64,000 nt of DNA, taken from contig CAIIXF020000011.1 in NCBI GenBank assembly GCA_903813345.2, positions 23,109,754 through 23,173,753 on the forward strand, in the 5' to 3' direction. This DNA comes from Owenia fusiformis. Its lineage: Eukaryota; Annelida; Polychaeta; Sabellida; Oweniidae. The notes under the pieces are model-generated. The model made no database searches, was not told where the DNA came from, and saw nothing but the letters and a program-made list of their open reading frames with translations. A program made the translations under genes and the position numbers. The stretch's first letter is position 1, and each line of letters begins with the position of its first letter. Positions 12,291 to 55,351 of the stretch are shown piece after piece.

Positions 12291-13979
12291 TAGACTTGTT
12301 TACTCATGAAGTTCCTGAAACATCTGAAAAATATCAAATAATACATAGTATTGATCTAGAATAGCTACAACTTTGTTAAAGTTTATAATTTGAAACTGTT
12401 TTGTTTTTTATATTTCAAAAGAACAGATTTGATCAAGAATCCACCAACCAACCAGCATAAAACTCAAGATAAGGAACTATATGTTATTGCTTAAAGCGAA
12501 AATGATGGAAATGCCAAATGTTGTCCTCAAATGTCTAATTTCTAAACACTAGTATACCAATGAAGTTCAAGAAACATTAAATATAACATTCAATAACACA
12601 TTATATTGATATAGAATGCTACATTTTTTATTAAAGTTTATAATTTGAAGTTCTTTAATTTTTTCATATTTTCCGCTCATCTTTCCTAATAAATGGGGTC
12701 GGGGAGATCTGAGAGCTCTAATTTGAACATTAGTTGTCTACTATACATTTTCTATACCTTAAATGGAAAAAAACATGAACAGGAATATATTTAATCAAAA
12801 ATGCCAGTTGGCATAAAACTCAAGATATAAGGAACTATATGTTATTGCTGAAAGTGGAAATGATGAAAAATGCCAAATTTTGTTCTTAAATGTCTAATTT
12901 CTGGACACTAGGATATTAATGAAGGTCCTGACACATTAAATATAGCATTCAATAACACATAAAGAATGGTTACATCTTTGTTAAAGTTTATACTGGTAAT
13001 TTGAAGTTATATTTTTATATTTTCCGGTCATCTTTCTTAATAAATGGGGTAGGGGAGATCTGAAAGCTCTGATATGAACAATGTTTGTCCAGACTAAACA
13101 TTTTCTATACCTTAAATGGAAGAAGACATGTACAAGAACAGATTTAATCGAAATTGCATCAACCAGTCAGCATAAAACTCAAGATATCGGGAACTATATG
13201 TTACAGCTGAAAGCGGCATTGATTAAAAAATGCCAAGTTTTGTCCTTAAATGTCTCATTTCTAGCCACATGAATAGCAATAAAGGTTCTGAAAAAGCTTA
13301 AAAACATTAGATAACACATAATATTGATAAAGAACAGCTACAACTTTATTAAAGTTTATAATTTCATGTTATTTTATTTTTTCATATTTTTCGGTTATTT
13401 TCCATAATAATTGGGGAAGGGGAGATCTGAACGCTCTAATATGAACATTGTTTGTCCACTATATATTTTCTATACCTTAAATGAAAGAAGACATCTACAA
13501 GAACAGATTTGATTGAAAATGCAACAACTATTCAGCATAAAACTCAAGATATGAGGAACTATATATTACTGCTGAAAGCCAAAATGATAAAAAAAATGCC
13601 AAGTTTTGTCCATAAATGTCTCATTTCTAGCCACTTGTATACTGATAAAGGTTCTGAAATATCTTAAAGACATTAAATAATACATAATGTTGATATAGAA
13701 TAGCTACAACTTTGTTAAAGTTTATAATTTCAAATTATTTTATTTTTTCATTTCTTCGGTAATTTTCCATAATAAATGGGGTAGGGAAGATCTGAAACCT
13801 CTCATACGAACATTGTTTGTCCACTATACTTTTTCTATACCTTAAATGGAATAACACATGTACAAGCACAGATTTAATCAAAAATGCCACAACCAGTCAG
13901 CATTAAACTCAAGATATAAGGAACTATATGTTATTGCTGAAAGCGAAAATGATTAAAAAATGCCAAATTTTGTCCTTAA
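12290..13979 (-). repeat. ~360-bp satellite, reverse array (right arm)
   Basis: Four to five units in reverse complement to 5560-7130, with landmarks GGGGAGATCTGA near 12701, 13047, 13418 and 13786 (spacing 345-370 bp) and ACTCAAGATATAAGGAACTA. The array is broken by the TTAA element at 13980 and resumes at 14556. Confidence 0.8.
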
Positions 13980-14551
13980 AGGGTGACGCATATCGTTTAG
14001 CAAATCGAACGCTCGTTTCTGGTGTTGCTCACCGTTTAGTATAAAAGGCCCGATCCCGGAATAATACTCAAGGGTTTACAGGTTCTAGGTCGTTGTGTCA
14101 ACACCTCTAACTGTTGTATAGTATAAGTATATTATAGATCGTCACACATTTATAAAAGGGTGATTTTTATTTTGACAAATCAATTCCACATTTATGGGTG
14201 AAATTTCAGGATCTTCTATTTGTGTACAATAAGGAAAAATTGGCATCTAAATTTCCCCATAACGTAATAGCACACAGCTTGGCATATGAAATATCCTACA
14301 AATGAAACAAAGCAAGACAAACCGGTTTCTAATACAAGGATTTATATTGGCTGTTGTACATGTATTCTTTGAACGCAATCACTCTTTGGATAACGTTTTC
14401 AAAATCATTATAAACGGATTACTTTATCTCAAAGACAATTTCAATAAACTGGATTTCACAGAACTCCCCTTATTTCTTAAAAATGGACTGATCCAGTTGA
14501 TTCGCCTGGAGCCGCCATATTGTTTTTATACGGGATGCTAATCGTCACCCT
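13980..14551. mobile_element. TTAA-flanked element inserted in the satellite
   Basis: The element begins AGGGTGACG and ends CGTCACCCT, between TTAA at 13976-13979 and TTAA at 14552-14555. Removing it and one TTAA restores the satellite text TGTCCTTAAATGTC found in neighbouring units, a clean empty-site proof. TTAA targets are used by piggyBac and Kolobok. AGGG termini favour Kolobok, which is inference. An internal 79-codon frame (14302-14541) has no recognised family. Relatives of its interior (GATTTTTATTTTGA... TGGGTGAAATTTCA) appear at about 54390-54450 and 57260-57330. Confidence 0.8.
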
Positions 14552-26526: not shown

Positions 26527-29500
26527 GTAAGATGTTAGTAGCATAAATTTTGCCATCATATTCAGCACATTCTCTTCCTGAATTGGTTTTTGTTGGATTA
26601 CCATTATCTGGTTTTTAGTTTTACATAATACAAATACAAGTATAATGAGTTCTTTTATATAGATATGGGCAACAAACGTTTTCCAAATTTTACATTTTAT
26701 AAATAAATATATGACAAAATATCAAAACCTTTGAAAAAACATTAAATGGCCTAATTAAAAAAGTGTCTTTCTAGTATGACCAATGAATTCATTTGAATCA
26801 GAATTTCAACATTTTCGCATGTCATACAGATACATGGTCATATACTATAAAAATTATGGAGAATGTGTTCACATCTCTTCAAAATCCGGAATCTCACGAA
26901 TGCAAAAACCTCGAAATGTGAACAACTAATCCAAACGCTTTTAGCCGGTCCCAATGGTGTTAGGATTAGACAGGTTTTACTTATAATATATATATAGTAT
27001 CGCCTGAGTATACTCACCTGCCGAATATGCCATATACCGCAGGTGAGTATGGCATATTATGAGGTTATATAATGGTTCTTTCTGTATATCGTGTTTATAC
27101 TCGAGTGAGTATATGATATATTCACAAGTGAGCGTAGCGCAGACTGTTATACATAGATTCAAGGAAATTGCATAAATTATTCAAGGAAATTGAATAAATA
27201 TTATTATTATGAAATCATACTTGAATCTGAGCAAAGCAACTAATAAAACAAAAAAGAAATGTTGTATTGTAATAGCTGAATTAGATACTTTCTTCAGTAA
27301 TACAATGTTAGATATCACATTTTCATGAAAAAGTTGCCCCGGGTATTGTGATGTCATATTACTATAGTAACCATAACTCTATCTGCATTTTATCTTTTTT
27401 TCTGAAACTCTCGAATCTTACTTGCAATGACGTGTCGCAAAAAGCTCGCGCACGCATTGTTACACATTTTGTGGCGCAATCCAGAGGATCCTCGCTTTTA
27501 ACATGATAGAATGTGACGTTTTTGAGAAAAATGTACACACATGAAAATCCTTTCGTCCTCCACATTTACCTCTATATCTCAAAACATTTTAGACGAATAA
27601 CTCTGATATCATTTATATATTGTTAATGGGCTAGGAGCATCATAAAACACGAATCAATTGATATTTTAGGTGAAATAAATATACGTGTTGCTGTGCTTGA
27701 AAATAGGCGAATGGCGTAAATTAGCCCTATTTTAATGAATTTTGAAAACCTTTCGTCCTCCACTTTTCCACATACAACAGAAAACACATACTTTTGTGAA
27801 CAAAATCAACTATTTATTAATAAACTAGAGTTTAGGAGCAAAATAATCATGTATGATTTATTAAAAATTGATCTCGTATTTTTTGTTTAATGTACACCTG
27901 AAAAGTTGAAGGTACCAAAAAATGAGCAAAAAAGGTCGCTGTCAACAGATTCTATTTTTCAGACTCTATGACGTCACAATATGGGACGCTTACTAAAATT
28001 CATCCTTTGAAATAAAACTTCCATCTACCTTTATCAAGACGAAAATTAAGTATAATAGTCATATATTGTTTGAGTTATGAGCGTTTAAAGACGAAAAATA
28101 ATTCAAAATGTAACGTGTCAACATGGAATATTTGCCAGATGTTTTGGTAAAAAAACTCTTTTTAAAAACGAACGCGCAAAAAATGTGAACGGAGTGTAGT
28201 TGATCTAAAATCTTCATCGAAACAGCTTTAAAATGATATATAACTTTAATTAGAATATTATCTTATAATCCGGGGAATCAAAGTTACATTCACGCGATAC
28301 CCTTAAAAAACAAATGCGCCACCTTTTAGCGACACGTCAATACTTCAAAGTAAAATTTCTGAAAATGTGAAAAAACTCAGTGCAGATTTGACAAAATGAC
28401 AGCACCAGTCCTGTTACTTTTGGAACACCCTGTATATCGTTGTTATAGACCCATGTTATACAACTGTAATTGGACTTAGAGTGGTATAATCACCCGTATC
28501 ACAAATACCGTGTAACCATGAATGTATGCCATATTCCGCGTAACAATTATGACACTTGATTAAGGTACATATATGCGAAGCGAAATGATAACACTGAAAC
28601 ATGGAGTGAACTATGACCATAGGGTACTCCATAGCTCGGTTTGCAGTCTTGAATTACTTTTTAATTTCATCATACCTGTCGTTTGAAGCGTATTTTGAAT
28701 GTTATTTCATATGCGTTTATCACAAATCATTCTTTTCAAATTTATCTGGCGGTTAAAGTATTTAGCTGGGGTGAAACGTTTCCGTTTCCATCTATTGTTG
28801 ATATACATAGAATATTATTGTTTTAGGGGATGATCTCAACACTAATCGGACCGACCTTCCTCGACCTAAAGGACCAGCTTGGGGTCGGTACAGCACAGAT
28901 GTCGCTGGTGTTTACATTTCACTCAGGAGGGTACACTCTAGGTGGCTTAGTGGCGGTATACTTGGCTAGCAGGCTTAACGAAACACTTCTACTTGCTGCG
29001 TTTTTGATCATAGGTGCAGGATTTACCATTGCCATACCTTGGTTTAGTCATCTTTGGCTTGTGCTCATGTTCTTCAGCTTTAATGGCATCACGTGTGGGG
29101 TGATCGATACCAGTAAGTCATAATATTAATAAGCGTATATATGTTTTCCTTTTTTAATCTAAGTACTAGTATAGCATGCTAGAAAGTTGTGTGGTAAAGG
29201 AGTGGTATCGATATGGAGAACTGAATTCAACAATGTTTTTCTTTTAAACCAATCATTGAAAACATTCTGTAAAAAACACGGTATTTTATGTAATGTTGAC
29301 TGATTGACAACAATTTAATGCGAAAGTTATTTATAAATATTTTATAGAACTGTTTTTGTTAACATTTTTTGTTTTTTTAGTGCAATTGTTTTTGCTCCTT
29401 TCTACCAATTCTTGAGAATAAATAAAATGTCTTTCCGAACCTTGCTGGAACAAAATAGCATATACAACATGTTTTTAGAGCTCTCAATATTATAGTTATA

Positions 29501-30940
29501 CAAAGGAATTTTCGGTTGATTTTAAAAAAGTATGACTGGTTTCAGAGAAACGTGTGTTCAAAAAGTTCTCCATATCGATACCACTACTTTGCTTTTTAAG
29601 AATCTTCTTCACAGTAAAACATGAAAAATAATTACACCGTATCCTCCTTGCAAAGCTTCAACGCATTGCACATCCTTTTATCAAGCCCTTTTCCACAGTT
29701 GCATCTCTATATTTATTTGAAAATTTTTCATCTTATTGTATTCTATTTGTAATTTGTTATTTTTTCAGTTGGAAGCGCTCTCTTGATTCTTACTTGGGGA
29801 GTCGATGCCGGGGCGTATCTGCAATTCTTGTACTTCTCATATGGCGTCGGTTCATTCATCACGCCATTAGTGTCTGGGCCTTTCATATCAAATGAAATTA
29901 CAGACTTCAACAGAAGGATCAACGCATCGGATATTCTCAATAACGAATCAAACAGGACACAGTTTGTATCTGGACAAGTTAAGGATATAAATTATAAATA
30001 TAAAGAACAAACTTCTTTGGTAAATGTACTTGAAAGAATAGGGAATATGTCAGCTATAGAGGAACCGGGAATCATGCTTTCAGAAATGACAGAATCTCAC
30101 ATTGAATTTGTCTACTTAATTGTCGGTTTCTTTAGCATTGTCATTGGAGTTTTCTTTTTCTTATTATATATGCTTGCAAAAAGGACACCTGGAAGTTGTC
30201 TGCATAGCAACGACCTTGTTGACAGCAGCTCTGAGAATAATGGACAGCAAATTAAAAAGAACAACTCTCTTATAGCTTCAAAAGATACTCTTTATCCTTC
30301 CTCGACCAAGTGTTTTAAAGTCCAACTATTGATTACATTATTTATCATGTTCTTTCTGTACGCTGCATTCCAAATGACGGGAGGTGGGTTAGTTATGACG
30401 TTTTCGGTGGAGGGCTTAAAATGGCCGAAGTCACACGGAGCAGCCATTACATCGGCATACTGGGGAGCTTTCACTTTATCCAGATTACTTTGTGTGGGTG
30501 TTTTTGCATCCAAAATTCTGAGCGCCAATCAGATGATCGTGATTGACCTAACAGTTTTGACATGTTCTTATACCGTGCTGGTTGTTTTTGTTCAAACCCA
30601 TTACATCGTGTTGTGGCTGACTTTGCTGTTGGCAGGGCTGGGTATGGGGACTCTCTATGCATCTGTATTACTCTTGTATCAAAAATATGTAATGCCTGTC
30701 ACTGGGGTGGTAACTGGTGTCACCGTCGTGGGTGCCTCCCTCAGTGCCACTACAGTTCCACTTTTCACAGGTTTCCTCATGGACAAAGTGCATTTCATGT
30801 GCTTTGCATATGTCCTACTAACAGCACAAATCCTATTGTTGCTTTTTGCTTTTTTAACTTACTTCTTGGTAAGACAAAACAGAAGAAATTATAAAGAAGA
30901 GAGCAGGGACTTAGACACACAAGAGAATACCATCTTATAA
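26104..30940 (+). CDS. MFS-A: MFSD4 / NaGLT1-like major facilitator, three coding exons
   Basis: Predicted 626-residue, 12-helix transporter. Coding exons are 26104-26526, 28827-29112 and 29769-30940, with GT-AG introns of phase 0 and phase 1. Residues 1-125 are an acidic, Asn/Asp-rich cytosolic tail. Helix 1 spans the first splice junction and runs into IGPTFLDLKDQLG, followed by helices 2-4 (about 166-236), helix 5 with LQFLYFSYGVGSFITPL (252-275), a luminal or extracellular loop with sequons near N288, N295, N298 and N329, helix 6 (349-373), a cytosolic loop, and helices 7-12 (419-603). GPTLLDL, GVIDT, LQ.L.F..G.G....PL and the helix-8 YWGAF segment are hallmarks I associate with MFSD4A/MFSD4B (sodium-dependent glucose transporter 1), so sugar or related solute transport is likely but the substrate is inferred. 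The start has a good context (ACAATGA). No break is seen. It is more diverged from MFS-B and MFS-C than those two are from each other. Confidence 0.88.
27428..28335 (+). mobile_element. TIR element in MFS-A intron 1 (partner 3061-4239)
   Basis: The ends TGACGTGTCGCAAAAA and TTTTAGCGACACGTCA are inverted. Most of the interior is the reverse complement of 3061-3720 plus 4151-4239. It lacks the nested ~0.4 kb insertion of that copy and so shows the empty site. No TSD could be fixed with confidence. Confidence 0.65.
28827..29112 (+). CDS. MFS-A coding exon 2
   Basis: 95 codons plus one base. The acceptor is TTGTTTTAG and the donor is A|GTAAGT. It encodes the end of helix 1 with the GPTFLDLKDQLG signature and helices 2-4. 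The loop after helix 2 (GGLVAVYLASRLN) sits where MFS motif A normally is, in a degenerate form. The exon is two codons shorter than in MFS-B and MFS-C, at SRLNETL versus SKYNMNPTL. Confidence 0.85.
29197..29589. mobile_element. ~390-bp MITE in MFS-A intron 2
   Basis: Inverted ends AGTGGTATCGATATGGAGAA at 29201 and the complement ending at 29585, possibly with four more paired bases outside (AAAG). A related single end followed by similar interior text is at 45207-45680. The TSD is not clear. Confidence 0.65.
29769..30940 (+). CDS. MFS-A coding exon 3
   Basis: 389 codons plus the two bases completing a split Ile codon, encoding helices 5-12 and a 23-residue charged tail ending ENTIL. The acceptor is TATTTTTTCAG. 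Helix 7 carries MTGGGLVMTF and the following loop GLKWPKSHG, both conserved in the paralogues. The last 0.2 kb is nearly identical to the relic at 43601-44043. Confidence 0.87.
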
Positions 30941-31737: not shown

Positions 31738-33845
31738 TAGTAGTGCACTTAAGATGTACGATGTCACTATTTCACCGATTTGAAGCATTTTTTCCCCTGT
31801 TGCCTAAGAGTGTCGATTATTTTTATGAGAATATGTTTCTCTATACTACACAATTTAGGACGGGTGGACATTAATAAAGTATTTATTGTAATTTAAAAAA
31901 ATCAGAAATGTGCGTTGTCAACTCGAATGTACGTTGTCCCTGTAATTGAAATTCATGAGATGTACGTAATAGTAAACAATGTAATGATTTCATTTCAAAA
32001 TTCACTAAGGTTTTATGAGTAACAAGTGATCTTTAACGAACATGTTCAAGTATCCTTTTTGCTTTTTCATTTTATGAAAGTATTGTTGTGGTGGCGGTTA
32101 ATTTGAGCCCATTGGTGTTAGCTTCTAGCCCAAACTCCCATCCGGTGTCTCGGAATATAATATATTGGAGACTAGCACTGCCACGGAGTCTGCCTCCAGC
32201 CTGTTTGATTATTTGGCGTTTGTACCTTACGTTTTGTTAGTTACATTGATAGATAGATCTACTAGCTTATTGAATATGACTTTTTAAAATCCCGTTCATG
32301 ATATATCTAGAAAGTTTCAATACTTCCATCAAATTGAAGTAATTCTGTAATTGTTCTGTTTCAATTTTAAATGCATCTGACCCCCTGTCTGTTAGTGTTA
32401 TGAAAAATACGTTGTTTGCATTGACTTACGGACAACTCATCCCCTAGACAACTCATCCCTGGACAACTCATCCCCTAGACAACTCATCCCCTGGACATCT
32501 CATCCCCTGGACAACTCATCCCCTGGACATCTCATCCCCTAGACAACTCATCCCCTGGACAACTCATCCATCCTTTATCACACCAGGCGAAATTGTAAAG
32601 TGTTTTTGGAAAAGAAATATTTAATAAATACACCTTGGATCATTCTAAATATCATTTTTTTACTGTATTGATACAAATAAAACTGTCAAACCATCAAAAG
32701 GTGCCATTAAAACTTTCATCTCTTGTCCTTATATGACATGACTAAATATTTCATGACAAAAAAATAAAGTTTTCTCTTTGTATGATTTTGAAACATGAAC
32801 TTCAGTAACTTCATCTATAAATACTGTGAAGAAAATAATCTTTGGATCAAGAATATTTGAACTCTGAACAACAAACATATTATGACATCAAAGGAGCTTC
32901 TCCAATCAATGTTAATATAATATTGAAATTGTGTATTAAAAGTAAAATTAAAGGTAAATATTTACATAACAAATTACAGATTAATTGGTTGATTATTTAC
33001 ATTACATTTTTATCACAAACATGTGTCAGTGAAGTTCCCTTTGCGTAACAAAAGTGAGGTATTAAAGCGATGATCGTGTTGTCTTCTGAACTATTTGTTT
33101 GCAAACATGTACATTTTCTTAGACAGATACTGACACACGTTTGTGATAAAAATGTTGTTGGAATTCTGTCTACAACTGGTGAAATAAGGAAAAAGAAAAA
33201 TTGCACCTTAGAGGCTCTGAAATTTTGTTACTGAAACGATCCGTTTACAATGTAATCGAATTAAGTACCAGTGTTCATGTTATACAATGTAATATATGTT
33301 TTTGAAACTTAAAACTGATCATGATAACCAAAACATCTAAATATCATTTGAATAATATATGAATTGATAATGTAACATAAAATTACTCAAACATGGCAGA
33401 TGATGAGTCGTCCAGGGGATGAGTTGTCCAGGGGATGAGTTGTCTAGGGGATGAGTTATCTAGGAGATGAGTTGTCCAGGGGATGAGTTGTCTAGGGGAT
33501 GAGTTGTCCAGGGATGAGTCGTCTAGGGGATGAGTTGTCCGGTTACCGTTTGCATTAGGGTTAACTTAAGTTCAATGGGACAACGTACATTCGAGTTGAC
33601 AACATACACTTATGTTTTTTTAAATTAAAGCCAAAATGTAAATACTTATTAAATCTTCAACATATCTTAATTGTGCTGTTTAAAGAAACATATTCAATTA
33701 TTATTATAAAAATCTTCGCCACTCTTAGACGACAGGGGAGGAAATGATCAAATGATGAAATGATCTTATTACCAACAGGAATCTTTCATATTTTCACATG
33801 TTGAAGACGAATTTCTAAGGTTTTCAGTGGTACCATACATCTTGA
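31738..33845. mobile_element. Foldback-like composite with inverted 17-bp minisatellites
   Basis: The outer arms (about 31740-31960 and 33560-33845) are reverse complements of each other, including TGTCAACTCGAATGTACGTT and CTAAGAGTG...CCCCTGT. Inside them sit two minisatellites of the 17-mer GACAACTCATCCCCTAG, nine units at 32427-32575 and nine in reverse at 33402-33541. A further inner inverted pair, TTTTTATCACAAACATGTGT, lies at 33005-33030 and 33129-33153. The architecture resembles Drosophila FB elements, whose long inverted repeats contain short tandem repeats. No transposase or clear TSD was found. Confidence 0.7.
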
Positions 33846-35004: not shown

Positions 35005-35391
35005 ATGGAAGGAATAAAATACCAAAGTGTAGATAACTCAGTCGAAAGCTCTGCAACTTGGAGACAAACTTCACAAAAAGACGGTTCTATTCGCTTGAAT
35101 GAAATGTTGCACACCGATGATACATCGAAAGTATCTCATGATAAGAGTGAGGAGATACTCCTCGGGAGCAAACCCCGAGACAATGAAAACTCTCGTGCTA
35201 ATGGTACGTTTGCTACGCTGACGAATGATGACATTGACGAGCATATCAATGATGACATCCTGGCAAATGAAGAAAATGCACCAATCAAAGATGAGACGAA
35301 GTTAAATGAAACTATTCACCAAATAAGTCATCCCGAGAAGACGAGGAAATTAGCCATTACATTTCTTTTATATCTAGCAATGGCCGTTGTG
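35005..35391 (+). CDS. MFS-B coding exon 1
   Basis: 129 codons ending LYLAMAVV at GTG before GTAAAC. The tail contains DDIDEHINDDILANEEN, shared exactly with MFS-C, while MFS-A has an unrelated-looking but similarly acidic stretch. It is rich in Asp, Glu, Asn and Ser, with no signal peptide. Confidence 0.85.
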
Positions 35392-38300
35392 GTAAACTAT
35401 AAAATGTTTTATTTTTTAATTTTGTTTTCGCAGTTAATGACAGTAGACAATCGGGCAAGAATATTCGATTGAATGCGATCCATTCAGGGCGAGTTGGGTC
35501 TTCGATATCTAAGTTAGTTGTAACACCTTGCATGTGCACATAGTCCCTAATCTGGACCCTCTGAAAAAAAGTTTTGTTGTCCGGTACTTTCCCACATAAA
35601 ATGATTGTACCGTTTGAAAGAACAGACTTCCCTCTTAAACAAAACACCTCTTCTATTGATGTAAACAGGGGCAAAAGGCACCAAAACGGGGTTAGACAAG
35701 GTGGCATTCTGAAGTCTCACTTTCTTGTCATCACGATTCCAGGTAAACCATCAGACGGATTTACTTCAAATTTTCATACATGTTACATGGTAAGAAGTGC
35801 TAGAGCTGATTAACTTTGCGGCGGCCATCTTGCATTCTGGTGGCCATCTTGGAATTTTTTTCAAATAAATATTGTCATCGCGATTCCACAAAAACCACAT
35901 AACAGATGTACTTCAAATGTTCACACATGTTACATGGTAAAAAGTCCTAGACCTCATTATTTTTTCGGTGGCCATCTTGCATTCTGGCAGCCATCTTGGA
36001 AGTTTTAAGATAAATCTTGTCATCACGATTTCAGGAAATCCAAACGGATTTACTTCAAATTTCCACACATGTTACATGATAAGAAAATGTAGAGGTGAAT
36101 AACTTTTCGGCAGCCATCTTGCATTCTGGCGGCCATCTTGGATATTTTGGGATAAATCTTGTCATCGTGATTCCAGGAAAACAACCTAACAGATTAACTT
36201 CAAATTTTCACATATGTTACATGGTATGAAGTTCTAGAGCTGATTAACTTTTCAGTGGCCATCTTGCATTCTTGCAGCCATTTTGGAAGGTTTATAGATA
36301 AATCTTGTAATCACGATTCCAGAAAAACCACTTCACAGTTTTACTTCGAATTTTCACACATCTTACATGGTATGAAGTTCTAGAGCTGACTTACTTTTCG
36401 GTGGCCATGTTGCATTCCGTCGGCCATCTTGGAAGTTTTTAGATAAATCTTGTCATCACGATTCCATGAAAACCACGTAACAGTTTTACTTCAAATTTTC
36501 ACACATGTTACATGGTAAGAAGTTATAGAGCTGATTAACTTTCTGATAGCCATCTTGCATTCTGGCGGCCATCTTGGAAGTTTGTAGATAAATCTTGTCA
36601 CCACGATTCCAGAAAAACCACTTTACAGATTTGCTTCAAATTTTCACACTTTATACATTTACAATGGTCCCTTCCTGGTATATTTTTTTAAGGTTTTATG
36701 ACTGTTAAATTCTATAGTCTAGTTAACACCACTTTATAAACAGGTTTATTATTACTGGTGTAACTAACACAACGAAAAAAAATATAATTAATTTATTTGA
36801 TTTTATATAACATGAAATTATTTTTTCTTTTCGATAAAACATATTGCTTATTAGAAATATATTTAGTTGAAAACTTAGAGTAAACAATCAGTTCTTCTAT
36901 CACAAAGTTTATTTTGGTTCAGTAGATTTTTCTATACATTATTTTTATGTCACCACCACTAGTGATTGGGTGACATATTGTAATAGCTTCGAACGTTTAT
37001 CTTGACACTGTTCAGTAGTTAATGTGTACTGTATACTTAACAAGGTGTGGTGACATTTTGCATGTTTCTGCATCGTCACTACTATTGAAAGCTTATGTTG
37101 ATATTGTAGCAGTGTTTTTTAAGTTCTTTTTGTTGGTACAATTAGTTTCCAAACCCTATACTTATATCGATCTGACACACAGTTTTAGTGCAGGTTTAAG
37201 TGATTTTTGTTGATTATTAAACACAAAGAGCACATGTGTCTCGAACTCGCAACATTGTGGATACAGAGCCCATTCACATAGTTTCACATGCTGGTGCTCT
37301 GAACCAGCTCGTTAGTTAATATCTGACTAAGAGACAGCTTGCTTTCCCGATGAAGAAACGTTATCTGCAGCTTTTATGAGTACTATAGTATCTACAACTA
37401 TTTTTGATCTTATGAGTATTGGATATCATTATTTTTCTTTAACATGTATTTTAATGACTTCAGTATGAATGGAATGTCCCTCGGAGTTGTGGTCGTTGAT
37501 GAGGAATTGGTCATTGAACGGTGTGGATGCTGTTTATTCCCATATTAGATTATTGTCTTGGGATATTCAGGTTTGATTTTTGTTTGCCAGTTTTACACTT
37601 TACAGTTTGCTTTTCCCACTAGGTTGCTTTACACTTTTTTCCTTTCTCATTTGTCATTTTTGTTTATATTTAGTAAGGATTGATACGCAGGTCTCTCCTT
37701 CTGTGTGATCACCTGTCCAGAAGATAATTCAACTGCATGAAGAACATTTCGTTGACATGATGCACAGTGAAAGGTTTTCCCCACATTTACATTTTCGTTT
37801 AAAAGAGCTTTAATTCCGTTATATACTCAGATCAAGGCCAATTTAGCATACATTTCGCTCTCAAAAATCGCTGTGCAATAATGGATTTTAAAGAAATGTT
37901 TGATGTTTTCAATAATCTTTTTTCTTTTTGATGAAATGTAGTTATTTATTCTAAAAATCAATCGATGTCATACACAAAATTCATTTAAGTGGTAGAAAGT
38001 ACAGAAGCAGAGTAAAAATATGTATTTTAGAATATCACCATGAGTTACCCCATTGTAGCGCCTCTTGCCCATGTTTCTATCAATATAAAACATCATATCA
38101 TACACCAAATATGCATTTATGTCAAATTATGTGGTTTAAAATACAGAAAAATAGATAACATTCTCCTTAGAATACCACCTTGTGTAACCCCACTTTACTG
38201 CCTTTTGCCCCTGTTTATATCAATATAAAAGGTAGCATGTAACCTTCCTTGTAAAAGTTTCAAGAAAATCAGTAAAGTGGTTTTCCTGGAATCACAATGA

Positions 38301-41300
38301 CAAGATTTATCCAAAAAAACTTCCAAGATGGCCGCCAGAATGCAAGATGGCCACCGAAAGGTTAACTAGCTCTAGAACTTCTTACCATGTAATATGTGTG
38401 AAAATTTGAAGTAAATCCGTTTGGTTTTCCTGAAATCGTGATGACAAGATTTATCTTTAAACTTCCAAGATGGCTGCCAGAATACAAGATGGCCACCAAA
38501 AAAATAATGAGGTCTAGAACTTTTTACAATGTTACATGTGTGAACATTTGAAGTACATCTGTTGTGTGGTTTTTGTGGAATCGCGATGACAATATTTATC
38601 TGAAAAAAATTCCAAGATGGCCGCCAGAATGCAAGATGGCCGCCGCAAAGTTAATCAGCTCTAGCACATCTTACCATGTAACATGTGTGAAAATTTGAAG
38701 TAAATCCGTCTAATGGTTTACCTGGAATCGTGATGACAAGAAAGTGAGACTTCAGAATGCCACCTTGTCTAACCCCGTTTTGGTGCCTTTTGCCCCTGTT
38801 TACATCAATAGAAGAGGTGTTTTCTTTAAGAGGGAAGTCTGTTCTTTCAAACGGTACAATCATTGTATGTGGGAAAGTACTGGACAACAAAACCCCTTTT
38901 CTAGAGCTCTTTTGGAAATCAGATCGGGGACTAACACTAAAATTACCCACTAACTTCGCTCTTATTGCAGTCGTACTCGATGTGAAAACCTTTTTTTCAA
39001 TTTTGCTATCGGAATGAGCTGAAGCGCATTTTGTGTTATGTGACATTTACTTTCTTGATTTATTGATATGTTTTCAGGGAATGATGGCAACTGTAATCGG
39101 ACCGACCTTACTTGACCTAAAAGATCAGTTGGGAGTCAGTATAGCTCAGATGTCATTGTCATTTGCTTTTTACTCGGGCGCCTACGCATTCGGGGGTCTT
39201 ATTGCAGGATTCATGGCGAGCAAATACAACATGAACCCCACATTGCAACTAGCACTGTTTTTGAGCCTGGGTGCAGGATTTACTATAGCAGTACCTTGGC
39301 TTGGAAATATCTGGCTTGTACTGGTGTTTTTCAGCTTAAATGGCATCACATTTGGGTTAATTGAAGCAGGTTAGCCAATACGTTATTGTTTGTGCTCTTA
39401 TGCTTGAAACAGGGCATTTTATATCATGCATTTAATACACGTTGTGTTTGTCCCTTGTATTGCGATCTTATGATTGAAACATTGTGGCTTATTGTAATTT
39501 GTTGATTACACATGATATTTGTCCTTTATATTGGACTCTTATGGTTGAAACAGGGTATCTTATGTCATATATTTAATACACGTGGTATTTGTCCCTTGTA
39601 TTGCGATGTTATGATTGAAACATTGTGCCTAATGTATTTTTTTTATTACACATGCTAATTGTCCTTTATATTGTGCTCTTATGATAACAATAGGGTATTT
39701 AATGTCATGTATTTAATACACGTGGTATTTGTCCTTGGTATTGCGCTCTTATGATTAAAACAGGTTATATTATGTAATGTATTTAATACACGTGGTAGTT
39801 GTCCTTGATATTGCGCTCTTATGATTACAATGGGGTATTTAATGTCATGTATTTAATACACGTGGTATTTGTCCTTGATATTGCTCTCTTATGATTGAAA
39901 CAGGGTATCTGATGTAATGTATTCAATACACGTGGTATTTGTCCTTGGTATTGCGCTCTTATGATTAAAACAGGTTATCTTATGTACTGTATTCAATACA
40001 CGTGGTATTTGTCCTTGTTATTGCGCTCTTATGATTAAAACAGGTTATCTTATGTAACGTATTTAATACACGTGGTAGTTGTCCTTGATATTGCGCTCTT
40101 ATGATTACAATGGGGTATTTAATGTCATGTATTTAATACACGTGGTATTTGTCCTTGGTATTGCGCTCTTATGATTAAAACAGGTTATCTTATGTAATGT
40201 ATTTAATACACGTGGTAGTTGTCCTTGATATTACGCTCTTATGATTACAATGGGGTATTTAATGTCATGCATTTAATACACGTGGTATTTGTCCTTGATA
40301 TTGCGCTCTTATGATTAAAACAGGTTATCTTATGTAATGTATTTAATACACGTAGTATTTGTCCTTGGTGTTGCGCTCTTACGGTATGATTGAAACGGGT
40401 TATCTTATGTACTGTATTCAATACACGTGGTATTTGTCCTTGGTATTGCGCTCTTATGATTAAAACAGGTTATCTTATGTAATGTATTTGATACACGTAG
40501 TATTTGTCCTTGGTATTGCGCTCTTATGATTAAAACAGGTTATCTTATGTAATGTATTTAATACACGTAGTATTTGTCCTTGATATTGCGCTCTTATGGT
40601 ATGATTGAAACGGGTTATCTTATGTACTGTATTCAATACACGTAGTATTTGTCCTTGATATTGCGCTCTTACAGTATGATTGAAACGGGTTATCTTATGT
40701 ACTGTATTCAATACACGTAGTATTTGTCCTTGGTATTGCGCTCTTATGATTAAAACAGGTTATCTTATGTAATGTATTTAATACACGTAGTATTTGTCCT
40801 TGGTATTGCGCTCTTATGATTAAAACAGGTTAATTATCTCATGTAATGTATTTAATACACGTAGCATTTGTCCTTGGTATTGCGCTCTTATGATAACAAT
40901 AGGGTATTTAATGTCATGTATTTAATACACGTGGTATTTGTCCTTGGTATTGCGCTCTTATGATTAAAACAGGTTATCTTATGTAATGTATTTAATACAC
41001 GTAGTATTTGTCCTTGGTATTGCGCTCTTATGATTAAAACAGGTTAATTATCTTATGTAATGTATTTAATACACGTAGCATTTGTCCTTTATATTGTGCT
41101 CTTATGATAACAATAGGGTATTTAATGTCATGTATTCAATACACGTGGTATTTGTCCTTGGTATTGCGCTCTTATGATTAAAACAGGTTATCTTATGTAA
41201 TGTATTTAATACACGTGGTATTTGTCCTTGGTATTGCGCTCTTATGATTAAAACAGGTTATCTTATGTAATGTATTTAATACACGTGGTATTTGTCCTTG

Positions 41301-42925
41301 GTATTGCGCTCTTATGATTGAAACAGGTTATTTTATGTAATGTATTTAATACACGTGGTAATTGTTCTTGATATTGCGCTCTTATGATTAAAACAGGGTA
41401 TCTAATGTAATGTATTTGATACACGTAGTATTTGTCCTTGGTATTGCGCTCTTATGATTGAAACAGGTTATTTTATGTAATGTATTTAATACACGTGGTA
41501 ATTGTTCTTGATATTGCGCTCTTATGATTAAAACAGGGTATCTAATGTTAGTGTTTAATGCAAACAATAATGATAATAGATAATGTGATGAGTTAAGACA
41601 CACATTATTTGTCCTCGATATTGTGATCTAATAATTGAAACTGGCTAGCTCATGTGCTGTACTTTAATACACTTGGTATTCGAGCTTTGTGTTTTGATAC
41701 ACATGGTATTCGTCCTTGGTACAAGCGGTTGTGTGCTAGATAATGTTGGAACAGGTTACCAACTTGTAATTCAGACCTGTAGACAATGTGATTTGTTTTT
41801 TCAGTAGGCAGCGCTCTCTTGATAAAAACTTGGAGTTCCAATTCGGGGCCATATATCCAAGTTTTGACCTTATCGTACACTATTGGAAACACATTGGCGT
41901 CCTTGATATCCAGGCCTTTTGTATCAGGGGTATCAAAGTTCAACATAAAAAACAACTATTCAGATATAGCTGATATTTCACTGACTGCTTCGGAACAATT
42001 CAAGAAGGGAAATTATACACTTGGACAGCAAGCCCCGAGAGAATATAGATCCGAAAATGAAGGAAATATGACAGATATTAGTTTATCAGAAGTTGGACTG
42101 TCAAATTTGAAGGAATCAGACATCGGATTTGTATATCTCATAATTGGATTACTGAGTGCTGCAATCGGACTTTGTTTTCTAATATTATATATACTTACAA
42201 AAAAGACATTCAGTAATTGTCTTAATAATGGAGCAGTTGCCATTAAAGGCACACGATTCAAAGAAATTGACGAACCTCGTAATACTATGAATGGTACAAC
42301 TTATACTCCTTTTGCTAAATGTTACAAACTCCAACTCATGGCTACGTTATTGTTGATGTATTTTTTGTTTACACTAATGCAAATGACGGGAGGTGGACTT
42401 GTCATGACGTTTGCCGTCGAGGGGTTAAAATGGCCGAAATCACACGGAACGGCTATCATAACAGCATACTGGGGTGCTCAAATTTTCTCCAAGTTGCCTT
42501 CTATTGTTATATTGGCATCTAAAATATTGAGTGCCAATCAGATGATTATAATAGATTTTACACTTTTAGCATGTTCTTACACTGTGATGGTTATTTTTGT
42601 TCAAAAACATTACATTGTATTATGGGTGACTTTGTTGACGGCAGGTTTAGGCCTTGGAAATCTATATGGATTGTGTTTACATTGGTACCAAACATATGTA
42701 ATGCCAGTGACTGGTGTGGTAACGGGAATCGTAGTAGTTGGTTCCAATCTTGGTTTTACAACGATGCCATTCTTTGCAGGTTTCCTAATGGAAGTCCATT
42801 TTATGTGGTTTGCATATGTACAATTAATAGCATACATTTTATTATTGCTTGTTGTTATTTTAACTTATTTTCTTGTGAGACATAACAAACGAAAATTGAC
42901 ACAAGAATGTGACAATAATATCTAA
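35005..42925 (+). CDS. MFS-B: MFSD4 / NaGLT1-like major facilitator, three coding exons
   Basis: Predicted 599 residues from exons 35005-35391, 39078-39369 and 41805-42925, with phase 0 and phase 1 introns as in MFS-A. The ATG at 35005 sits in an excellent context (GGCCATGGA) that is identical in MFS-C. An in-frame ATG twelve codons upstream (34969) is not conserved there, so I chose 35005. The acidic N-terminal tail of about 115 residues is followed by 12 helices with the GPTLLDLKDQLG, MTGGGLVMTFAVEGLKWPKS and YWGAQIFSKLPS segments of the MFSD4 family. Sequons lie in the helix 5-6 loop (NYS, NYT, NMT). Very close to MFS-C, especially at the 3' end. Introns are inflated by a foldback element (intron 1) and a minisatellite (intron 2). 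A sugar-transport role is inferred from family; the exact substrate is unknown. Confidence 0.88.
35542..38937. mobile_element. Foldback-like element in MFS-B intron 1 with ~145-bp tandem units in its arms
   Basis: The outer arms 35542-35735 and 38740-38937 are reverse complements. Inside the left arm are about six units of ~145 bp (landmark CATCTTGCATTCTGGCGGCC at 35826, 35970, 36113, 36258, 36408 and 36551). The right arm has about three units in reverse (38235-38740). The middle (36680-38190) is unique and includes the SINE-like piece at 37205-37320. The ends look like TAGTCCC/GGGACTA with a possible 3-bp ACA duplication, which is weak. The arms hold short conserved frames, including HQNGVRQGGIL, which resembles a LINE reverse-transcriptase motif. 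Confidence 0.7.
37205..37320 (-). repeat. Possible tRNA-derived SINE head
   Basis: On the minus strand TGGTTCAGAGCACC resembles an A box and AGTTCGAGACA a B box (9 of 11), about 59 bp apart. No tRNA fold is convincing. It is weaker than the SINE head at 15066-15135. Confidence 0.3.
39078..39369 (+). CDS. MFS-B coding exon 2
   Basis: 97 codons plus one base. The acceptor is GTTTTCAG and the donor is GCAG|GTTAGC, with T at +3, a weaker donor shared in form with MFS-C. It encodes the end of helix 1 (GMMATVIGPTLLDLKDQLG) and helices 2-4 ending FGLIEA. Confidence 0.87.
39370..41600 (+). repeat. 70-bp minisatellite filling MFS-B intron 2
   Basis: About 31 units of ~70 bp, with landmarks TATTGCGCTCTTATGATTAA, AACAGGTTATCTTATGTAAT, GTATTTAATACACGTAGTAT and TTGTCCTTGG. 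A few units carry a 5-6 bp expansion (TTACGGTATGATT type). The array starts at the exon 2 donor itself and ends about 60-200 bp before the exon 3 acceptor. About fifteen units keep CAGGTTA, the sequence at the true donor. The reverse-strand open frames in the array are by-products of the repeat. A short, diverged version occupies intron 2 of MFS-C. Confidence 0.92.
41805..42925 (+). CDS. MFS-B coding exon 3
   Basis: Starts after TTTTTTCAG with TA completing a split Val codon, then GSALLIKTW. It encodes helices 5-12 and a short tail ending QECDNNI. The first ~300 bp differ from MFS-C by roughly 15 percent by eye, whereas the last ~250 bp are almost identical. Confidence 0.87.
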
Positions 42926-48785: not shown

Positions 48786-51700
48786 GTAAATAGTCGATTG
48801 GTTTCTTTTTTAAAACTTGTTTTCGTCTTATAGCTAGTGACAGAGGCATAACCAGGATCATTAATTAAGTGGGCAAGTTAAATTGACAAGGCATTTGGTA
48901 TAAAGCTTGTCTGTTCTGTTTTTTGAGTTGGGTAGATTTTTATTTGGGTAGATTCACACTACTATACCCCCATACTGTATCCTGTATTCCTTTAAAAGAA
49001 GTACAGGCTACAGGGAAGTTGCAAATGGAGGACGTTTGTTTATTTCCATAGTTCTGAATGTATACTAGATTTTACACATATTCTAAGTGTTCTACTATAC
49101 ATTGTATAGATTCATCGAGCAGTTTGCAACGTATTATTACCAGAAAAGCCCAATGGACAAAGATAGAGAATACTCGCTCCATTTGCAACTTAACCGTACC
49201 CTGTATCATTTTTAAATGTGGTCACGTGGTAGGGTAGTGTGAGATTTTAAGCCCCCATATAAAGTTTAAACCACTTTGGCTTATATTGTAGTCTTACCAA
49301 AGGTCATCAAAGTGTGATATGTGAGACCTTTTTTATTTCAAAAAGTGTTTTTTGGAGGACTTTTTGTTAAAAAATCGTGAATTTATTCGAAAATAACTTT
49401 TAGAGGTCACACTGCGGTAGAGTCATCCTGTAATGAAGAAACAACTTTGTCTGAACCTGTAACCACACGTCAGGCAATTTATATTATTATTGTTAAAAGC
49501 CCTAACGGTAAGGCCCCTGGACATGATTCGTTAACTAATGAGCATTTTAAGAACGGTGGAAGTTTACTAGAAAAGGATATTACTGATTTATTTAATACAA
49601 TGATAAAGTTGAAGTAAATACCACAGAGCCATAAACTCGGCACTATAATCTCCCATTCTGATGCTCATAGCATCTTTCTGTTTCACTTAAAGCATGCTCC
49701 GGGCTGAGAAGAGTTGAGATGTCATGGTTTATCATGATGATAATCTCCCTATTTAAGGGTAAACAGAAGGACAAATTAGTACAAAATAATTACAGAGGGC
49801 TCACTCTTACACCCCAGTCACATTTCCCACGGTCGCCGTGCGGTCTATCATTTCTGCGGCCAGTAGCTTTTCTACGCTCGCCGTAGAACTTCTGCGCTCT
49901 CATACTTTTGCAGTCACATTTCCCACGGCAGCCGCACGGTGAATTTTAAATTTCTGTTGATAAAAAATACTTATTTTCATTTTATTTACATCAGGACAAT
50001 TTATAAATGTTATTCATAGTGCTAGGATGTAATATCAAATGAAAAGTGATCGTGAAACATTGACAAATAATGATTCAATCTTGTTGAGCCAGTTGATTTC
50101 TACGGGGACCTCAGAAATGAACAAATATTCTAACTCCGAGTTATAATTTCTACGGCGACCCTGCGGCCTGTAAAAAATTGGATACGACGTACGGAGGCCG
50201 CAAGGCGAGCGTAGTTTTCCTACACTCGCCGCAGAAATACACTGATTTAATTGATCTGCGGTCGAGGCACGCCCTCCGTACGACAAATGTGACTGTGACT
50301 GCTATTTGCATAGCACACTGTCTACTGACACTTTGGGGAGTAGGCGACCATTTTGAAAAATGGCCACCATTCTTACATGTGTTTTTTTACCTTTTTCACT
50401 ATAACTCAAAAAGTAAAAGGGCGATTTAGTTCATATTTGATACGTGAATACTCATAAGCATACTACATTGTCTTCTGACCTTTTGGCAAGTAGACGGCCA
50501 TTTTGAAAAATGGCTGCCATTGACGTGTGCGAAGGGTGATCATGAATTTCTGAACCGTGGGCTCTATTATCTATTTTTGCAATTTATATCCTTTCCTGGT
50601 GATTTTTCACCCAAAATAGGAACACACCATGGATAATTTACCTTATTTAAATAATACTCAGTGAGTCAGGCGAAAAATTATCAAAAGAAATTTGAAAAAA
50701 ACAACATTTTCCAACCGATAAATTTTGTGGGTAGATTTACTCCGAAAAAAGAGAATCGTTTAACGTAATCAGAAAGATAAAAGTCTTTCTTTAAGCGAAT
50801 ACACAAGAAATTAAAAATGAAATCCTTTATATATTCATCAGATTCGATTTTTAAGACGTACAACAAACCTACATCATAGTTTTTGTTTCAAATCAGTTAA
50901 TAGTGACTCAGTTCATCCTAAGTGTAGGTGACGGTATATTTTGTCCCTAAACATATTTCCCTAGGACTTAGTGCCCGACGGACCTGTATTCCTAGGAAAG
51001 TAAGTCCATCGGACATAATTTAGCGTGGACATGTGAAACTGTCACACCGGTTACAATAGTGAGGTTTTTGATCCGTCTCGTGAACAATGCGTTCGTAAAC
51101 GATTAGATTTTCTTAAACATCGAACTGTGGTGAAACTTATTTTGTGTTAAATGAAACTTATTTTATTAGTTTAAAAAGTTGACTGGACATTTTCTTCGAA
51201 AAATTATATTGACTTGTTTTCAGGGCATGGTGGCAACCGTAATTGGACCGACCTTACTTGACCTAAAAGACCAATTGGGAGTCGGAAATGCTGAGATGTC
51301 ATTGTCATTCGCCTTTTACTCGGGAGGTTACGCACTCGGGGGTCTTATAGCAGGATTCATGGCGAGCAAATACGACGTTGACCCGATTTTGCAACTTGCA
51401 TTGTTTTTGGGCATGGGTGCAGGATTCACAATAGCAATACCTTGGCTTGGCAATATCTGGGCCGTGCTGGTGTTTTTCAGCTTAAATGGTACATCATTTG
51501 GAGTAATTGAAACAGGTTAGCTACCATACATTTATCCTTGGAATGTACTCTTATGATGGAAACAGGTTAGCTGATGTGCTGGTACTAATACGAGACCAAA
51601 TGGTATTTTTCCTTTGTATTGCGCTCTTATGAAACGGGGTATCAAATGTACTGTGTTTAATACACATGGTATCTGCCTTTGATATTGCGCTATTATGATT

Positions 51701-53263
51701 GAAACGGGGTATCAAATGTATTTGTGTTTAATACACATGGTATTTGTCTTTGGTATTTGCTCTAATGATTAAAACAAGGTAACTAATGCACTGTATTTAA
51801 TTCACGTCATGATATTTGACCGTAATTTGGTATTGCGTTCTGATCCTTGAGATGCACTTTGTTTAATTCAAATTATAATTGTCTTTAGCATTTCGCTCTT
51901 AGGATTGAATCAAGGTAGCTAATGCACGTTGTTTAATACAAATCGTATCTGTTACCCCCCCCCCATATCACACAAAACTAGATCTCAACCGTTCTTTCCA
52001 GTCCTACGAAAAAATCGTAAAACGGGTAAGTTTGGTGTGCTAGTAGGGTTAACGTGCTTTGATAGCTGAAACAGGTTGCCAACTTGTAATTACAGATATG
52101 TAGACAATGTGTTTTGTTTTTCAGTAAGCAGTGCTCTATTGATAAAAATTTGGAGTCCCAATTCTGGGCCATATATCCAAGTTTTTAGCTTATCGTACAG
52201 TGTTGGAAACACGTTGACGTCCTTGGTAGCCAGACCATTTGTATCGGAGATAGGCCTATCAAAGTTTAACATAAAAAATAACCATTCAGATATGACTAAT
52301 ATCTCACTGACTGTATCGGAACGTTTCGGGAAGAGAAGTCATACATATGGACAACAAACGCCGAAAGAGTATGGATTCGAGAATGAAGGAAATATGACAG
52401 ATCTTAGTTTATCAGGAACTGGGCTATCCAATTTGAAGGAATCAGACATCGGATTTGTATATCTCATAATTGGATTACTGAGTGCCGCAGTCGGACTTTG
52501 TTTTTTGATATTATACATACTTACAAAAACGACATGTACATTCAATAGTTGTTTTAATAACAGCACTAGCGCTACCAAAACCACAAATTATAAAGAAATT
52601 GACGATCCAAGTAATACTATAAATGATATAACTTATGCCCCTTTTGCTAAATGTTACAAATTCCAACTCTTGGCCACGTTATTGTTAATGTATTTCTTGT
52701 TTGCAATACTTCTTATGACGGGAGGTGGACTTGTTATGACATTTGCCGTCGAGGGGTTAAAATGGCCGAAATCCCAAGGAACTGCTATCATTGCAGCATA
52801 CTGGGGTGCTCAAATATTTTCCAAGTTACCTTCCATTGTAATTTTGGCATCTAAAATACTGAGTGTCAATCAGGTGATTGTGATTGATCTTACACTTTTA
52901 GCATGTTCTTACGCTGTGATGGTTATTTTTGTTCAAAAACATTACATTGTCATATGGGTAACTTTGTTGACGGCAGGTTTAGGCCTTGGAAATTTATATG
53001 GGTTGGGTTTACATTGGTACCAAACATATGTAATGCCAGTGACTGGAGTAGTAACGGGAATCGTAGTAGTTGGTTTCAATCTTGGTTTTACAACGATGCC
53101 ATTCTTTGCAGGTTTCCTAATGGAAGTCCATTTTATGTGGTTTGCATATGTACAATTAATAGCATACATTTTGTTATTGCTTGTTGTTGTTTTAACTTAT
53201 TTTCTTGTGAGACATAACAAACGAAAATTGAAACAAGAATGTAACAATAATTTCAAAGCATAA
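48399..53263 (+). CDS. MFS-C: MFSD4 / NaGLT1-like major facilitator, three coding exons
   Basis: Predicted 605 residues from exons 48399-48785, 51224-51515 and 52125-53263, with the same intron positions and phases as MFS-B. The start ATG at 48399 has the same GGCCATGGA context. Acidic tail, GMVATVIGPTLLDLKDQLG at the end of helix 1, helices 2-4, then helices 5-12 with MTGGGLVMTFAVEGLKWPKS and YWGAQIFSKLPS. Sequons NHS, NIS and NMT lie in the helix 5-6 loop, and a six-residue-longer stretch near the helix 6-7 loop (TTCTFNSCFNNSTSATKTTN) distinguishes it from MFS-B. All three exons are open and splice sites are intact, so it is probably functional. Membrane localisation and sugar-type substrate are inferred from the family. 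Confidence 0.88.
49410..49815 (+). mobile_element. LINE reverse-transcriptase fragment in MFS-C intron 1
   Basis: About 49483-49618 reads SPNGKAPGHDSLTNEHFKNG, the N-terminal reverse-transcriptase motif of non-LTR elements (usual form K-A-P-G-x-D). It is closed by a stop at 49617-49619 and followed in frame by IPQSHKLGTIIS. 49750-49805 continues with LFKGKQKDKL and NNYRGLTLTPQ, the usual next block. Between them an 85-bp insert (49655-49739) is bounded by the direct repeat ATAATCTCCC (49645-49654 and 49740-49749). The clade is not assignable from this piece. Boundaries are approximate. Confidence 0.75.
49816..50294. mobile_element. ~480-bp TIR element in MFS-C intron 1
   Basis: AGTCACATTTCCCACGGTCG at the left and AAATGTGACT at the right in inverted orientation. 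The left motif recurs internally at about 49912 (CAGTCACATTTCCCACGGCA). GC-rich segments with CTACGCTCGCCGTAGAA are also inverted within it. It abuts the LINE fragment. The TSD is not clear. Confidence 0.65.
50330..50550 (+). repeat. Diverged pair of ~130-bp units with CCATTTTGAAAAATGG
   Basis: The phrase GGCGACCATTTTGAAAAATGG (about 50343) recurs as GACGGCCATTTTGAAAAATG (about 50495), each followed by GCC(A/G)CCATT. It is a short tandem duplication in intron 1 of MFS-C with no further units. Confidence 0.5.
51224..51515 (+). CDS. MFS-C coding exon 2
   Basis: 97 codons plus one base. The acceptor is TTGTTTTCAG and the donor is ACAG|GTTAGC. The sequence across the donor, GAAACAGGTTAGCT (51509-51522), is repeated exactly at 51559-51572 inside the intron. 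Confidence 0.87.
51516..51960 (+). repeat. Short diverged form of the 70-bp minisatellite in MFS-C intron 2
   Basis: About six degenerate units with TATTGCGCTCTTATGA, GAAACGGGGTATCAAATGTA and TTTAATACACATGGTATYTG, matching the unit that expanded in MFS-B. A C-run at 51953-51963 follows. Confidence 0.8.
52125..53263 (+). CDS. MFS-C coding exon 3
   Basis: Begins after TTTTTCAG with TA completing a Val codon, then SSALLIKIW. It encodes helices 5-12 and ends QECNNNFKA. Its second half is the source of the broken copy at 54691-55351. Confidence 0.87.
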
Positions 53264-54450: not shown

Positions 54451-54690
54451 GGTGAAGTTTCATATATATATATTTCTTTATTGCGACCAATTCTGATCAT
54501 ATACATATAGTTTAACATAAAACGTTATAAAAGGTTATAAAGGAACAACATACAAAAATATAACAAAATATAGTTGTTTAGTGCAGGACGTTTAGAGCAT
54601 TGAGAAATCTAGTTCTCAGTTGGTACATATATACACCGTCCTGGCTAGTATAATACAATCATCATATTCATTTGGGGCAAAAATATTTTC

Positions 54691-55351
54691 CAAATTCCAA
54701 CTCTTGGCCACGTTATTGTTAATGTATTTCTTGTTTGCAATAATTCTTATGACGGGAGGTGGACTTGTTATGACGTTTGCCGTCGAGGGGTTAAACTGGC
54801 CGAAATCACACGGAACTGCTATCATTGCAGCATACTGGGGTGCTCAAATATTTTCCAAGTTACCTTCCATTGTAATTTTGGCATCTAAAATACTGAGTGT
54901 CAATCAGGTGATTGTGATAGATCTTACACTTTTAGCATGTTCTTATTGTGTGATGGTTTTTTTGTTCAAAAACATTACATTGTCATATGGGTGACTTTGT
55001 TGACGGCAGGTTTAGGCCTTGGAAATTTATATGGGTTGGGTTTACATTGGTACCAAACATACGTGATGCCAGTGACTGGGGTGGTAACGGGAATCGTAGT
55101 AGTTGGTTTCAATCTTGGTTTTACAACGATGCCATTCTTTGCAGGTTTCCTAAGGTTTACATTGGTACCAAACATACGTGATGCCAGTGACTGGGGTGGT
55201 AACGGGAATCGTAGTAGTTGGTTTCAATCTTGGTTTTACAACGATGCCATTCTTTGCAGGTTTCCTAATGGAAGTCCATTTTATGTGGTTTGCATATGTT
55301 CAATTAATAGCATACATTTTGTTATTGCTTGTTGTTGTTTTAACTTATTTT
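54691..55351 (+). pseudogene. Broken MFS-C exon 3 copy with an internal 115-bp duplication
   Basis: Similarity to MFS-C begins at 52657 (CAAATTCCAACTC) and ends at about 53203, where the copy jumps to sequence from 53721. It lacks exons 1 and 2, the start of exon 3 and the stop region. One base is missing in the segment VMVIFVQKHY, shifting the frame. The stretch 55039-55153 is repeated immediately at 55154-55268, so the helix 10-11 region appears twice. It is clearly non-functional as a transporter and very similar to MFS-C, so young. Confidence 0.9.

Follow-up and report, generated by a model that had tools for sequence, protein, structure and literature searches.

The locus described here raises the question of how an intron can come to be filled with a tandem repeat that seems to copy the intron's own 5' splice site. 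It lies in a window of 64,000 nucleotides (nt) on contig C11 of the genome assembly of the annelid Owenia fusiformis (498 Mb, 12 chromosome-scale contigs), which contains three MFS-type genes, MFS-A, MFS-B, and MFS-C, all on the + strand and each with three coding exons in open frames. The assembly has three above-cutoff matches to the erythrocruorin linker family, which is typical of annelids; a search of it for COX1 gave no match. We found that intron 2 of MFS-B is mostly occupied by a minisatellite whose 70-bp unit overlaps, in register, the junction of exon 2 and intron 2, and that the same repeat is present in intron 2 of MFS-C and of a third gene, MFS-E, on another chromosome. We think it likely that this is a donor-anchored ("mirage"-type) minisatellite, derived from a tandem duplication across that junction, expanded in MFS-B, and spliced out normally.

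MFS-B intron 2 (39370-41804, + strand) is a phase 1 intron of 2435 bp. Tandem Repeats Finder (TRF) called a 70-bp repeat on the + strand at 39390-41559 (30.7 copies, 85% matches, score 2941), in agreement with the first-pass annotation, which had put the array at about 31 copies; it takes up ∼89% of the intron, and wrap-around alignment placed its span at 39390-41562. Downstream of the regular array, degenerate units at 41579-41721 (+ strand) were recognized by nhmmer in the tested stretch 41563-41729, with expect values (E) of 8.5e-17 and 0.00072. The last intron stretch (41739-41804, + strand), consisting of GGAACAGGTTACC plus the polypyrimidine tract and acceptor, looks alike in MFS-B, MFS-C, and MFS-E and may be related to the repeat unit. 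Across the whole window, the + strand has 21 copies of the motif CAGGTTA, 16 of which lie in MFS-B intron 2: it is present in 15 of the 31 array units, just the number first estimated, and the 16th copy is close to the intron end. Units 5 to 30 have a mean identity of 0.877 among themselves, versus 0.758 between units 1 to 4 and the rest, so the edge units lie outside the homogenization; some units are identical to each other though far apart in the array. Such homogeneous later units and identical distant units are as expected of local turnover. No RNA-structure signal was found in a two-unit stretch, which was less stable than shuffled sequences (z-score, +1.66).

The true 5' splice site of MFS-B intron 2, CAG/GTTAGC (39370-39375, + strand), sits at the CAG/GT position of a shortened first unit. 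The same holds in all three array-bearing genes: the true donor coincides with the CAG/GT position of the repeat unit (offset 0), units overlap the real exon-intron boundary in register, and the array begins at the exon's own donor via the shortened first unit, with the next unit core lying 43 bp past the true donor in MFS-B, 50 in MFS-C, and 51 in MFS-E. Because the first unit is shortened, the array forms no regular 70-bp ladder from the donor. The MFS-C donor sequence, GAAACAGGTTAGCT, is found again at exactly +50 bp, as the first-pass annotation had stated. On the exon side, the last ∼11 to 12 nt of MFS-B exon 2 (39078-39369, + strand), AATTGAAGCAG, are the counterpart of the repeat-unit end, GATTGAAACAG. 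An array lying clear of the donor was seen in none (0/3) of the array-bearing genes, a comparison among paralogs of one genome.

To compare the boundary with the repeat, an ancestral unit was derived from MFS-C, MFS-E, and one MFS-B unit and adjusted by hand (notably, G at +5), and donor 19-mers were scored at the 14 positions outside CAGGT against a background of 664 AGGT sites. The donors of MFS-B, MFS-C, and MFS-E scored 11/14, 13/14, and 10/14, respectively, and none of the 664 sites reached 10. When +4 and +5 were also left out, the scores of MFS-B, MFS-C, MFS-E, and MFS-A were reached by 0, 0, 5, and 17 of these sites. In anchored alignments, no shuffle of the first segment's intron part reproduced the score (0/1000 for each of the three genes), and 17, 19, and 6 of 1000 exon-part shuffles did so for MFS-B, MFS-C, and MFS-E. 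A profile search likewise placed the intron part in register for MFS-C (E, 0.0059) and MFS-B (E, 0.031). The intronic register of unit and donor is firm. The inclusion of 11 to 12 exonic nt in the unit is probable, as is an origin of the minisatellite from the donor boundary. Array-free MFS-A keeps the homologous coding sequence ATCGATACCA; the exon sequence is therefore older than the array, and we infer that copying ran from exon to array.

Several observations weigh against this reading. The boundary tests with the ancestral unit rest on a hand-adjusted reference, and the donor of array-free MFS-A itself scores 9/14 against it, a value that 3 of the 664 sites attain or exceed. The plain majority unit of the MFS-B array gives weaker support: the donors of MFS-B, MFS-C, and MFS-E score 9/14, 11/14, and 8/14, reached by 4, 0, and 19 of the 664 sites, so that 19 background sites equal the MFS-E donor. 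Against all 11384 GT sites, again without +4/+5, the scores of MFS-B, MFS-C, MFS-E, and MFS-A are reached by 11, 0, 88, and 366. The exonic overlap is short (11 to 12 nt) and individually modest (6 to 19 per 1000), and the MFS-E first segment had an E of 1 in the profile search, no better than the best background match (0.27). Finally, because the genes are homologous, the agreement of MFS-B, MFS-C, and MFS-E does not amount to three independent tests.

The repeat is nearly private to these introns. A 23-base pattern allowed ≤3 mismatches gave 37 matches in the 498-Mb assembly, 34 of them in the introns of MFS-B, MFS-C, and MFS-E; the other three (on C7, C9, and C12) were all at exactly 3 mismatches, and a reversed-pattern control gave one match. 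Three DNA searches, which score the best candidates only, matched these genes alone. We therefore reject a dispersed repeat, or an introner or other transposon: 34 of 37 matches in three introns, together with array-free paralogs, indicate a repeat anchored on the exon 2 donor. The first-pass annotation had named a better alignment to some unrelated dispersed repeat as the finding that would overturn its reading, and no dispersed repeat explaining the unit turned up in the searches.

A protein search of the same genome identified 24 exon 2 matches, counting MFS-A, MFS-B, and MFS-C. MFS-C intron 2 (51516-52124, + strand) contains several older, diverged units of the MFS-B repeat. In MFS-E (L033; C3:1896000-1905600, minus strand), intron 2 is 392 bp long and contains the MFS-B-type repeat, partly as 49-bp units that have lost the donor-like core. 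An in-frame stop interrupts exon 1 of MFS-E and a frameshift falls toward the end of exon 3, so the gene may be a pseudogene, yet one that retains the intron 2 array. In MFS-A, which represents the outgroup state, intron 2 (29113-29768, + strand; 656 bp) is array free, with a single weak profile match at 29273-29296 (E, 0.64), and lies at the position and phase of MFS-B intron 2. No array of the MFS-B-type repeat was found in intron 2 of MFS-A or of the five remoter paralogs for which both exon 2 and exon 3 were located by separate matches. TRF runs on 20 loci (L013 to L032, including these five genes) found no donor-anchored array within ∼1.5 kb on each side of exon 2. In two remoter paralogs (L035 and L037), intron 2 includes an unrelated short repeat of two copies, distant from the donor. 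Downstream of a distant MFS paralog, a 40-bp repeat of 15.9 copies (L034:3831-4468) also includes GCAGGTTTT; we rejected it as an intron 2 array since it sits beyond exon 3.

Amino acid identity is 0.83 between MFS-B and MFS-C, 0.775 between MFS-B and MFS-E, and 0.778 between MFS-C and MFS-E, compared to 0.51 to 0.54 between MFS-A and any of the three. From these identities, and from the presence of the array in MFS-B, MFS-C, and MFS-E and its absence in MFS-A, the origin of the array can probably be placed between the split from MFS-A and the duplications that gave rise to the other three, unless MFS-A lost it. We propose that a short boundary-spanning stretch, ∼11 nt of exon 2 plus adjoining intron, was tandemly duplicated within a preexisting phase 1 intron of the gene ancestral to MFS-B, MFS-C, and MFS-E, and that gene duplication carried the repeat units along. 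They would have stayed few in MFS-C and MFS-E and reached ∼31 in MFS-B, where expansion probably proceeded via unequal exchange or replication slippage plus local homogenization. Splicing would most likely still run from the true donor to the only real acceptor, and read-through would meet a stop at once.

Whether such an array disturbs splicing depends on the strength of its decoys. We estimated donor strength as ViennaRNA duplex energy against the 5' end of U1 and as the count of matches to CAG/GTAAGT; both measures are crude and ignore enhancers and context. The true donors of MFS-B and MFS-C pair with U1 at −7.1 kcal/mol and that of MFS-E at −11.0. None of the 226 internal GT sites in the MFS-B intron matches the true donor by U1 pairing (CAGGTTATC reaches −5.6), all 31 array units either fall below it or have no GT, and all 16 CAGGTTA copies lack G at +5. 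The first-pass annotation had described a ladder of decoy donors starting at the true one: it was right that the unit overlaps the boundary in register and that units carry splice-signal copies (CAGGTTA in MFS-B, CAGGTTAGC in MFS-C), but the MFS-B decoys are not the equals of the true donor. The decoy ladder is real in sequence and weak in predicted strength. Telling against this, in consensus-match count 4 of the 226 MFS-B sites are on a par with the true donor, and 3 of 47 sites in MFS-C equal or beat theirs; MFS-C has a decoy, CAGGTTAGC, identical to its true donor at +50 and a stronger GTAAGT site, CGGGTAAGT (−11.1), at +510. In MFS-E, no internal site (0/40) is as good as the true donor by either measure. 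Read-through past the true donor encounters a stop (GTTAG) that ends at intron nt 5 in MFS-B and MFS-C. Since the MFS-B units lack +5 G and pair more weakly with U1, and since read-through meets an immediate stop, the intron is most likely removed normally, using the true donor and the one real acceptor.

An opposite view of the same decoys is that the array acts as an alternative-splicing switch, in which repeat-internal CAG/GTTA sites are used appreciably as donors, add stop-carrying extra units to the message, and let copy number tune MFS-B expression via mRNA decay. The 16 CAGGTTA copies in MFS-B (four of them matching the consensus as often as the true donor does) and the +50 and +510 sites in MFS-C would fit such a switch, and it has a precedent in human ABCA7, where one 25-bp unit of an intronic repeat is retained (PMC5954066). 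However, each of the 31 MFS-B units either pairs less well with U1 than the true donor does or has no GT, and the comparable amphioxus repeats were reported without interference in regular splicing (PMC3087553, PMC3902484); we regard a switch as improbable. It is about as doubtful that the array was instead born within the intron near the donor, with the likeness of CAGGTTA to the splice site due to chance and no exon sequence copied. The shortness of the exon overlap and the lower scores obtained with the MFS-B majority unit (9/14 for MFS-B, 4/664 sites; 8/14 for MFS-E, 19/664) are what one would expect from a chance likeness, as is the absence of the exon 2 end from the top matches in a scan of exon windows, but donor and unit stand in the same register in all three genes, with unit order kept downstream, and none of the 664 background sites attains the 13/14 of the MFS-C donor.

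A very small chance is left to the possibility that expansion was favored because the array, whose MFS-B unit reads TACACGTGG, would form a homotypic cluster of transcription factor sites serving as an intronic enhancer. CACGTG E-box palindromes number 17 in MFS-B intron 2, compared to none in MFS-C intron 2 and 8 elsewhere in the window; yet a single founder motif copied by array growth accounts for this count, and MFS-C has CACATG (two copies) instead. Intron gain by tandem duplication does not apply, as MFS-A shares this intron in position and phase, and in the five remoter paralogs, too, exon 2 and exon 3 match separately.

A variant of the boundary-duplication reading is that the unit copied the whole of an ancestral short intron 2 together with both exon edges, so that an exon 3 start (GCGCTCTCTTGAT) would be fused to the exon 2 end (ATTGAAACAG). 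If this were true, MFS-B intron 2 would hold ∼31 phantom microexons, and selection against decoy splicing would have weakened their donor cores afterward. We consider it unlikely, and the resemblance between the unit and the exon 3 start is no more than suggestive. With exon 3 shuffled, the score was reached by 3, 11, and 5 of 1000 for MFS-B, MFS-C, and MFS-E and by none for MFS-A. The intron end plus exon 3 start of MFS-B, MFS-C, MFS-E, and MFS-A was reached by 3, 3, 7, and 3 of 438 acceptor-like sites (a background that includes MFS-A's own acceptor as its highest scorer) and by 8, 5, 25, and 0 of 3000 random windows. The exon 3 27-mers of MFS-B and MFS-A were reached by 10 of the 438 sites, and those of MFS-C and MFS-E by 135 and 62. 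The intron 3' end alone was not above shuffles (124, 195, and 68 of 1000), and last-segment profile matches were weak (E of 0.098 in MFS-E, 3.3 in MFS-C, and 5.4 in MFS-B). In the exon-window scan, the exon 3 start came first in MFS-B at 18 nt and tied for first in MFS-B at 22 nt and in MFS-A at 14 nt; in MFS-C and MFS-E it was not among the best six matches per gene and window length. With results this mixed, we do not count the exon 3 start as part of the unit.

As for selection against decoys, the donor-like core diverges more than the rest of the unit in MFS-B (0.260 versus 0.121) and MFS-C (0.314 versus 0.192) but hardly so in MFS-E (0.222 versus 0.192), a core divergence reached by 4, 5, and 39 of the 70 circular shifts, respectively. 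We do not take this as evidence of selection, because 29 of the MFS-B core differences represent one amplified change at +5 relative to a hand-chosen reference.

Tandem repeats that include a splice donor are already known, and because similar cases have been described in lancelets and humans, the MFS-B array is a new, long example rather than a new kind. The closest are the amphioxus "mirage" minisatellites of Adh3, troponin C, the globins BflGb6 and BflGb9, and PGBD5 (PMC3087553, PMC3902484). The 70-bp MFS-B unit falls within the range of the Adh3 unit (10 to 72 bp), and edge units are spared homogenization in both systems. The MFS array differs in its size (∼31 units in MFS-B versus 6 and 3 reported for BflGb6), in including only ∼11 exonic nt, in the weakening of its expanded donors, and in having a repeat common to three paralogs, in an annelid rather than a lancelet. 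The variable-number tandem repeat in intron 18 of human ABCA7 also takes in its exon's own donor, as do the arrays of MFS-B, MFS-C, and MFS-E: its first two bases are the canonical GT, and its units carry GT donors. Unlike the MFS-B repeat, it has a 25-bp unit, in a C-rich region. It is polymorphic in people; one unit is retained at a low level, and skipping of the downstream exon rises with repeat length (PMC5954066).

The human IFI6 (IFI-6-16) minisatellite gives multiple splice donors (Turri et al. 1995, via PMC4526556; also cited in PMC2572611 and PMC3618361). It resembles the MFS array in lying at an exon end and in having units that carry donor sites; however, its downstream units are used as donors, yielding three mRNA species, whereas the MFS-B decoys are predicted to be weak. 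The Rogers model of intron gain via tandem AGGT duplication (PMC4974935) similarly involves duplication of a segment containing AG/GT, but MFS intron 2 is old, with the same position and phase in MFS-A, and no new intron was formed. In annelids, an earthworm metallothionein intron has minisatellites that, in the passages covered, are not described as donor-derived (PMC12783039). We saw no annelid mirage in literature on minisatellites, splice donors, introns, and tandem repeats, a coverage that excludes most subscription papers. The MFS array would extend splice-site-anchored minisatellites, described in lancelets and people, to an annelid. Since the three paralogs differ in repeat size (∼31 units in MFS-B, and fewer, more diverged units in MFS-C and MFS-E), they allow decoy number and strength to be set against splicing within a single animal. 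MFS-B combines the large expansion with CAGGTTA copies that all (16/16) lack G at +5, a coincidence that leads to the prediction that long donor arrays are tolerated when the decoys are weak.

The remaining gene features of the locus are as follows. The coding part of MFS-B exon 1 (35005-35391, + strand) has an open frame that runs on into exon 2, and exon 3 is modeled at 41805-42925 (+ strand); MFS-B matches Pfam MFS_1 (E, 5.4e-18). MFS-C exon 2 is modeled at 51224-51515 (+ strand). Between MFS-B and MFS-C, synonymous divergence (dS) is 0.28 and the nonsynonymous-to-synonymous ratio (dN/dS) is 0.31, well below 1. A partial fourth MFS copy at 54690-55350, judged by eye, is a probable pseudogene and contains a perfect 115-bp tandem duplication at 55039-55268.

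The window also contains other repeats. MFS-B intron 1 includes an inverted repeat with arms at 35563-36148 and 38316-38901 (586 nt, 94% complementary), which overlaps 145- to 147-bp tandem repeats and looks like a foldback-type element. An inverted pair of 16-bp tandem arrays (GGACAACTCATCCCCT) lies at 32429-32568 and 33402-33541 (140 nt, 94% complementary, 833 nt apart). Inverted copies of a 365- to 366-bp tandem repeat occupy 5771-6756 and 12419-13980, several kilobases apart, and their best arms are 532 nt long and 85% complementary.

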